IMG/VR virus record: IMGVR_UViG_3300013286_000014
Span: 1 to 61,083 of that record
Origin: a virus
DNA length: 61,083 nucleotides
Direction: 5' to 3' (one strand)
Each line of letters begins with the position of its first letter. The stretch's first letter is position 1. The notes under the pieces are model-generated. The model was not told where the DNA came from, ran no database searches, and saw only the letters and a list, made by a program, of their open reading frames with translations. Shown here piece after piece: positions 58,370-58,953 of this stretch. The position numbers and the translations under genes were made by a program.

Positions 58370-58504
58370 TTAGATTACTTCGTATTCGTCTTTGCCACAC
58401 CCGCATTCTGGGCATAAAAAATCGTCTGGCAATTCGTTCCAAACACCTTCAAAGTCTTCATCGTGGATATGTCCACATACTACGCATACATGTGTTTCAC
58501 TCAT
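58370..58504 (-). CDS. Rubredoxin
   Basis: A 44-residue protein, below the usual gene-finder cutoff. The ATG at 58502-58504 overlaps the rubrerythrin stop (TAATG). Two CxxCG metal ligands are visible, C7/C10 (CVVCGH) and C31/C34 (CPECGCGKDEY), with a conserved acidic middle (FEGVWNELPDDF). This is the rubredoxin pattern: one Fe held by four Cys. It sits directly after the rubrerythrin gene and would be its electron donor, as the C-terminal domain is in the usual fused protein. Confidence 0.9.
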   Translation of the reverse strand: MSETHVCVVCGHIHDEDFEGVWNELPDDFLCPECGCGKDEYEVI

Positions 58505-58953
58505 TATAGTGTCTCCAATACTTGTTGATATGCTTCTGCATGGCGTTTTTCAATTTTAGCTAACGCCGCAAAACGTTTTTCTGCTTTGGCTAGAACTGCG
58601 GCAAACTGTGCGGCATGTTCTTTTGATTCTTCAATTTGGTTGGCGGCTTCTTTGGCGGCTTCTAGTTCGCCTTCTCGTTCAGCAATGGCTTGAAACTGTG
58701 GATACATCTGAGTAAACTCGTATGTTTCACCTTCGATAGCTTTTTCCAAACATTCTTTGGTTGTGGGCTTACCAACTATTAGTTCCAAATGACCCCATGC
58801 GTGTAGTAGCTCTTGATCTGCTGTATGTTCAAAGTGTTTGGCAACATCTTCAAATCCTTCTGCTCGAGCGATCTTCGCAAAGTAGCGATATTTGATATGA
58901 GCCTGTGACTCACCGGCCAGCGCCGATTCTAAATTTTTAATTGTAACTGACAT
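58504..58953 (-). CDS. Rubrerythrin (diiron peroxidase domain)
   Basis: A 149-residue four-helix ferritin-like protein. Diiron ligands visible: E15 (AGESQAH), E48 and H51 (QELLHAWGH), E76 and E79 (GETYEFTQMYPQF), and E135/H138 (IEKRHAEAY). The pattern fits rubrerythrin, which reduces hydrogen peroxide using electrons from rubredoxin. The C-terminal rubredoxin domain of the usual protein is absent here and is encoded by the next gene instead. It is part of the same minus-strand transcript as RNase H. Confidence 0.93.
   Translation of the reverse strand: MSVTIKNLESALAGESQAHIKYRYFAKIARAEGFEDVAKHFEHTADQELLHAWGHLELIVGKPTTKECLEKAIEGETYEFTQMYPQFQAIAEREGELEAAKEAANQIEESKEHAAQFAAVLAKAEKRFAALAKIEKRHAEAYQQVLETL

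Follow-up and report, generated by a model that had tools for sequence, protein, structure and literature searches.

A conserved rubrerythrin–rubredoxin gene pair with a trimmed rubredoxin in viral contigs

The gene pair and its predicted products

The window, i.e., the whole stretch of DNA analyzed, is a viral record of 61,083 bases. It carries two adjoining genes on the minus strand: rubrerythrin (Rbr, 58504..58953), encoding a ferritin-like diiron protein of 149 aa, and rubredoxin (Rd, 58370..58504), encoding 44 aa. Both were assigned from their translations, Pfam matches (PF02915 and PF00301, respectively), conserved residues, which for Rd are invariant cysteines, and structure models. The Rbr stop codon and the Rd start codon share one base within the sequence TAATG (58502..58506, minus strand), an overlap that presumably couples translation of the two genes; the preliminary description had coordinates, strands and overlap exactly right. 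Shine-Dalgarno-like motifs were found for both genes on the minus strand, AAGGAG for Rbr (58959..58964) and GGAG for Rd (58513..58516), the latter within the 3' end of Rbr. Across the 77 viral loci examined, Rd was in every case preceded by GGAG, AGGA or GAGG. A promoter search was uninformative (6 found vs. 5.8 expected). The Rd gene had been considered short enough to be missed by standard callers; gene callers in common use take genes of 90 bases and more.

Upstream of Rbr, the same gene run contains an ORF of 70 aa with no assigned function (58963..59175, minus strand; no match in Pfam or PHROG) and a replication-type 5'–3' exonuclease gene (59177..60196, minus strand; PF02739, 6.5e-18; phrog_107, 5.4e-40). 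The record also encodes portal, baseplate wedge and baseplate hub proteins, SbcCD-like recombination proteins and thymidylate synthase, all matching phage families, and its earlier designation as phage is therefore correct. From this gene set, we would name it a fragment of a T4-like phage. Three further regions were observed on the plus strand: a single open reading frame of 5,364 aa after the baseplate wedge gene (21924..38018); a 544-aa ORF among tail-fibre-like genes (39788..41422), which by eye has the look of a sedolisin/subtilisin-type peptidase with a GTSATAPL motif; and a run of ORFs (48474..52315) that, again by eye, resemble glycosyltransferase-type or related proteins.

The Pfam search placed Rbr in the Rubrerythrin family (PF02915, 1.3e-18, 68.1 bits against a cut-off of 22.8), and its matches among PDB sequences were rubrerythrins, down to 1.4e-21. 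Residues E15, E48/H51 and E76/E79 of helices A–C (E, ExxH and ExxE) are invariant in 54 cellular and 110 distinct viral sequences, the latter combining both viral searches described below with identical proteins merged; we take these residues to be the diiron ligands, by their roles in solved rubrerythrins. The Rbr model reached a pLDDT of 92.8, although its alignment was shallow, with 27 close sequences, and the scores of three out of five models were far below this value. Its best VIA match was the B. pseudomallei rubrerythrin 8fxd (Z 14.6, rmsd 1.3, 126 aligned). The rmsd was low to sulerythrin and P. furiosus chains and about 14 Å to D. vulgaris rubrerythrin. Sulerythrin and P. furiosus rubrerythrin are domain-swapped, and this pattern suggests that Rbr is probably also a domain-swapped, four-helix ferritin-like oligomer.

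Rbr also matches the Ferritin family (PF00210, 2e-07), which belongs to the same superfamily, and iron is limiting in many waters. The protein might accordingly handle iron, oxidizing and holding host Fe(II) while Rd carries electrons for iron release. We regard such a role as quite improbable, since the best structural and sequence relatives of Rbr are rubrerythrins and sulerythrin, not ferritins, and its branch includes a peroxidase precedent, according to PMC6616624.

The last helix of Rbr is about 25 residues longer than in aerobic-type rubrerythrins, which are without the extension. This helix-D extension spans about codons 102–128 (58570..58650, minus strand; the border is alignment-dependent) and contains the invariant residues Q106, E109, S110 and H113. 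Of the ligand-type residues on this helix, E109/H113 and E135/H138 do not vary in the 110 distinct viral sequences. Across the branch, E109-S110-x-x-H113 and E135-x-x-H138 are nearly or fully invariant, with D in place of E109 in two of the 157 aligned sequences. In the model, H113 and its associated residues occupy the usual helix-D position and spacing, but the residue three positions before the histidine is Ser instead of Glu. A canonical ExxH motif, E135xxH138, lies 25 residues further on, beyond the bundle. The long last helix with its two ligand-like sets characterizes the entire branch and is not confined to the phages. The two conserved sets raise the idea of a second metal or docking site in each chain, perhaps across a domain-swapped dimer; phages would then have kept the long helix while minimizing the donor, giving a compact Rd-dependent peroxidase with an unseen active-site architecture. 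This idea is speculative, and we consider it unlikely. Desulfovibrio vulgaris and Pyrococcus furiosus rubrerythrins share the diiron ferritin-like fold and the helix A–C ligands with the phage protein, whereas their short-spaced C-terminal domain is fused (PMC5114695) and the alignments to the PDB matches listed include no such lengthening of the last helix.

Rd matched PF00301 (2.4e-07, 31.1 bits against a cut-off of 23) and fell below the cut-off for PF21349, the rubrerythrin-type rubredoxin domain. Its matches among PDB sequences were rubredoxins (down to 2.8e-09), as were the Foldseek matches of its model (pLDDT 89.2). C7, C10, C31 and C34, invariant in 55 sequences, form two CxxC knuckles with 20 residues between them and are the predicted Fe(Cys)4 ligands. 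The preliminary description had reported a coupled pair with its ligands on a phage, and the four cysteines and the Rbr ligand motifs are indeed all present. It had also taken Rd for the usual C-terminal domain of rubrerythrin, which does not hold, as Rd is of the free-standing type.

In 77 phage Rd sequences, the two CxxC motifs are separated by 20 (62 sequences) or 17 residues (15 sequences). By comparison, 29 residues lie between the motifs in each of the 17 Rd from Pseudomonadota and Myxococcota and in each of the 27 fused cyanobacterial rubredoxins, which indicates that the phage Rd has been trimmed. The Rd loop shorter by 9–12 residues and the overlapping genes are the phage-specific features. 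A cellular protein, Desulfovibrio desulfuricans rubredoxin (6rxn, 45 aa), is short too, with a TM-score of 0.81 to the phage Rd model and 39% identity in the alignment, but it is not tied to this Rbr.

Conservation of the pair across viral contigs

Viral contigs were searched with each protein. The Rbr search yielded 448 candidate stretches, 446 of which encode a relative, and the best 80 of the 446 were used; for Rd, the best 80 of at least 561 Rd-bearing stretches were used. Because contigs are common to both sets, the two are not independent. Among the best 80 of 446, Rd was found downstream of Rbr in all 78 loci with downstream sequence, the other two ending at a contig edge. The spacing in this set was −1 in 51 loci, −4 in 17 and a gap of 1–16 bases in nine, i.e., Rd lies no more than 16 bases from Rbr in 77 of the 78 loci and the genes overlap in 68. 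The exception, L018, has an extra 42-codon ORF between Rbr and Rd (about 4413–4540) that starts at the overlap itself. In the Rd-seeded set (best 80 of at least 561), Rbr lay upstream in 79 of 80 loci; the sole locus without it, L196, has only 69 bases upstream before the contig edge.

As a control, 430 further ORFs from these loci were checked, and none had an Rd-type motif directly downstream; 25 of 455 raw control hits had first been dropped as Rbr ORFs with an earlier start. Median pN/pS over pairs was 0.22 for Rbr, 0.35 for the 44-aa Rd and 0.21 for the 42-aa Rd, and the value was below 1 in 187 of 210 pairs of the 44-aa Rd. As read from these ratios, both genes are under purifying selection. 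Pairing, control and pN/pS together rule out a chance ORF. The presence of the pair in related phages, a check that the preliminary description itself had proposed, is thereby established for the viral contigs in both directions.

Among 50,697 named phage records, eight matched Rbr and eight matched Rd, with no accession common to both; 19 of 72,556 plasmid records matched. All these phage and plasmid matches were below 60% identity. The absence of a named phage record with both genes among the matches, together with the occurrence of the pair in only part of viral diversity, would fit a neutral passenger of recent host origin. We find this scarcely credible, as pN/pS is 0.21 to 0.35, the viral proteins form one clade with many distinct members, and the pairing is kept everywhere it was checked.

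No paper on a phage rubrerythrin–rubredoxin pair was found in the open-access literature, which yielded isolated annotations only. Phage rubrerythrins occur there singly, as unexplored annotations (PMC10146946, PMC10199544), and phage rubredoxins are also mentioned (PMC10671443, PMC12038007). Here, an enzyme-plus-donor module is seen in every checked viral contig with room for it, including T4-like records and records of 260–356 kb. The pair is real and conserved, and the preliminary description had it right in outline; its parts are ordinary, and what sets it apart is its wide occurrence as a trimmed viral module.

The genomic neighborhood was scored in 81 loci. RegA, clamp-loader, gp32, exonuclease or dCMP-deaminase genes were located near the pair in 37 of the 81 loci, according to the flanks available; these replication genes were not found in the other 44, many of which are short contigs. 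Relatives of the 70-aa ORF were present at 11 of the 81 loci. Among 17 large viral records, the T4 major capsid family and ThyX were each detected in 11 and the small subunit of ribonucleotide reductase in 12. At 15 of the 81 loci, the pair has an Hsp20-type small heat-shock gene in its vicinity (e.g., L062, 5203–5733), which makes a stress cluster possible.

The closest named phage is the T4-like Pelagibacter phage Mosig EXVC030M (MT647606). Its Rbr likewise lies in a replication neighborhood and adjoins the ssDNA-binding protein gene, but it is only 37% identical, shorter, without the extension and of aerobic-type look, with no rubredoxin annotated beside it. The Mosig Rbr (L082, 5986–7383) is of another branch and was apparently acquired independently, in a replication neighborhood of a similar kind.

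Cellular relatives and origin of the pair

We looked for cellular relatives with the long last helix in genome samples from three phyla. Ten of 398 Pseudomonadota genomes passed; one was a chimera (L083), and the nine others all had a full-length Rd gene shortly downstream. Among 282 Myxococcota genomes, 69 passed, eight of them with the extended form and Rd downstream (8/8). Of the 61 other Myxococcota passers, 22 were examined and proved to be chains of 138–141 aa without a fused rubredoxin; the CxxC motifs downstream of some of the non-extended chains were Fe-S oxidoreductase-like. The cyanobacterial phylum gave 59 of 292 genomes and 30 loci, of which 27 encode fused proteins of 231–238 aa with a C-terminal rubredoxin. 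Two further loci (L119, L120) encode the domain alone: rubredoxin is neither fused to it nor present within 400 bases. The remaining locus is a Vampirovibrio copy. In L083 (139–1293), a Rhodobacteraceae MAG, a phage Rbr is continuous, in a single reading frame, with an unrelated protein; the contig has low coverage, is probably a chimeric assembly and was left out of the tree.

A tree of 97 rows was built with an aerobic-type outgroup, comprising 65 of the 110 viral, seven of the 27 fused cyanobacterial and five of the seven aerobic-type rows. In this tree, phage Rbr shares a clade with the RbrA-like proteins of cyanobacteria and the one-domain proteins of proteobacteria, to the exclusion of the aerobic type. 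This placement points to the cyanobacterial-type branch, group 5, the number being taken from the description in PMC5114695 and not from that paper's sequences. Cardenas 2016 (PMC5114695) defines the branch as group 5 and reports that a one-domain portion of it, with proteobacterial members, lacks the rubredoxin domain; the gene-context passages considered here concern the aerobic-type group. The 17 of 17 Pseudomonadota and Myxococcota members with a neighboring Rd add to this picture of a branch partly lacking rubredoxin. Rd stood next to Rbr in every RbrA-branch member of these two phyla examined (L149–L157, L089–L096).

All 65 viral rows and Vampirovibrio formed one clade with a support of 100/100, from a bootstrap not fully settled. 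One viral clade suggests one capture. Vampirovibrio is nested inside it, in a 10-row set supported at 83/90, and the viruses without Vampirovibrio were grouped in 0 of 200 bootstrap trees; a phage-to-bacterium transfer is therefore probable. The Vampirovibrio Rd has the short phage-type loop. In this MAG (L084, 4340–5600), the phage-type pair adjoins a thiol peroxidase. The simplest reading of the tree would be a single phage capture from a bacterial two-gene arrangement, with a later return to a Vampirovibrio.

The two-gene version of Pseudomonadota and Myxococcota resembles that of the phages in its extended Rbr and an Rd gene directly downstream. It differs in its full-length Rd and, in the loci inspected, in a short gap or a start near the stop, whereas phage pairs mostly overlap. 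Because Rd is already a separate neighboring gene in these bacteria, the two-gene state of the phages was probably inherited from them. The overlap of stop and start at TAATG could alternatively mean that, in the phage, a stop codon separated the C-terminal rubredoxin domain from a classical rubrerythrin, the split envisaged in the preliminary description. We consider this highly improbable: Rd scores above the cut-off for PF00301 and below that for PF21349, the bacterial outgroups have separate genes and a full rubredoxin, and the viruses nest in that branch. The split of a classical rubrerythrin was hence rejected on rubredoxin type, outgroup gene order and tree, Rbr belonging to the RbrA branch, whose bacterial members already have a neighboring Rd gene.

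Among known systems, RbrA (Anabaena sp. PCC 7120 Alr1174), compared through its relatives in the cyanobacterial phylum, is of the same branch and has a true rubredoxin partner. The RbrA branch and phage Rbr share the extended last helix and the motifs Q..ES..H and E..H. RbrA-type proteins, in contrast, carry both domains on a single chain, with a CxxC–CxxC spacing of 29 residues (27/27 fused relatives), whereas the phages have two genes and a spacing of 20 or 17. The definition of RbrA includes a rubredoxin fused at the C-terminus and a CxxC–CxxC spacing of 27 to 32 residues. With a separate gene and a 20-residue spacing, the phage protein falls outside this definition and is therefore a relative of RbrA, not RbrA itself.

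Proposed role in infection

We hypothesize that the pair is a small bacterial stress-defense operon that phages captured and that serves as a two-gene peroxidase system. The Rbr diiron site would reduce H2O2 to water, and Rd, made in matched amounts from the overlapping gene, would hand it electrons one at a time. The electrons would come from a host NAD(P)H reductase, such as rubredoxin reductase or ferredoxin-NADP reductase (FNR). During infection, the system could keep peroxide levels down during phage DNA replication and protect iron and radical enzymes, e.g., phage ribonucleotide reductase. This route from NAD(P)H through host reductase, Rd and Rbr to H2O2 is, in our judgment, likely. Within it, we infer iron binding, electron transfer from Rd to Rbr, the peroxide substrate, the host reductase, the timing and the benefit.

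Several observations bear on the individual steps. Fusion of the two proteins in one lineage and their adjacency in others provide strong evidence, at the level of gene arrangement, that Rbr and Rd work together, and the same pairing and fusion back the putative electron step from Rd to the diiron site. A review (PMC6616624) describes cyanobacterial RbrA as a peroxidase that is driven by NADPH via FNR and protects nitrogenase; by analogy, the phage pair should reduce H2O2. The thiol peroxidase next to the Vampirovibrio copy is in keeping with such a role. No pyridine-nucleotide reductase (PF07992) was found above the cut-off in the 17 large viral records, all fragments, which gave two weak sub-cut-off matches, and the reductase is therefore likely the host's. 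Family knowledge and the replication genes near part of the loci make it plausible that the pair removes peroxide and protects DNA synthesis. Protection of DNA-precursor synthesis would be a reasonable benefit in view of those genes (37/81 loci) and of the ribonucleotide reductase small subunit (12/17) and ThyX (11/17) in the large records. Weighing against the scheme are the Ser in place of Glu where the model puts a canonical helix D, the two loci of the cyanobacterial phylum that lack a rubredoxin (L119, L120) and the 44 of 81 viral loci without the scored replication genes.

According to the same review (PMC6616624), electrons pass from FNR to the diiron domain of RbrA without use of its rubredoxin center, so Rd may not be the main donor. 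Rbr could then be reduced directly by host FNR, with Rd mainly serving another diiron or flavin partner of host or phage, and the annotation of rubredoxin-type proteins in Vibrio phages (PMC10671443, PMC12038007) would agree with this. Yet an Rd with a different main partner should be found without Rbr too, whereas Rbr accompanies it in 79 of the 80 Rd-seeded viral loci (best 80 of at least 561) and the two are fused in cyanobacteria; we therefore hold direct reduction by FNR to be improbable. As for the proposed two-gene peroxidase, a complete module of this kind would make peroxide control in infection a testable part of phage biology.
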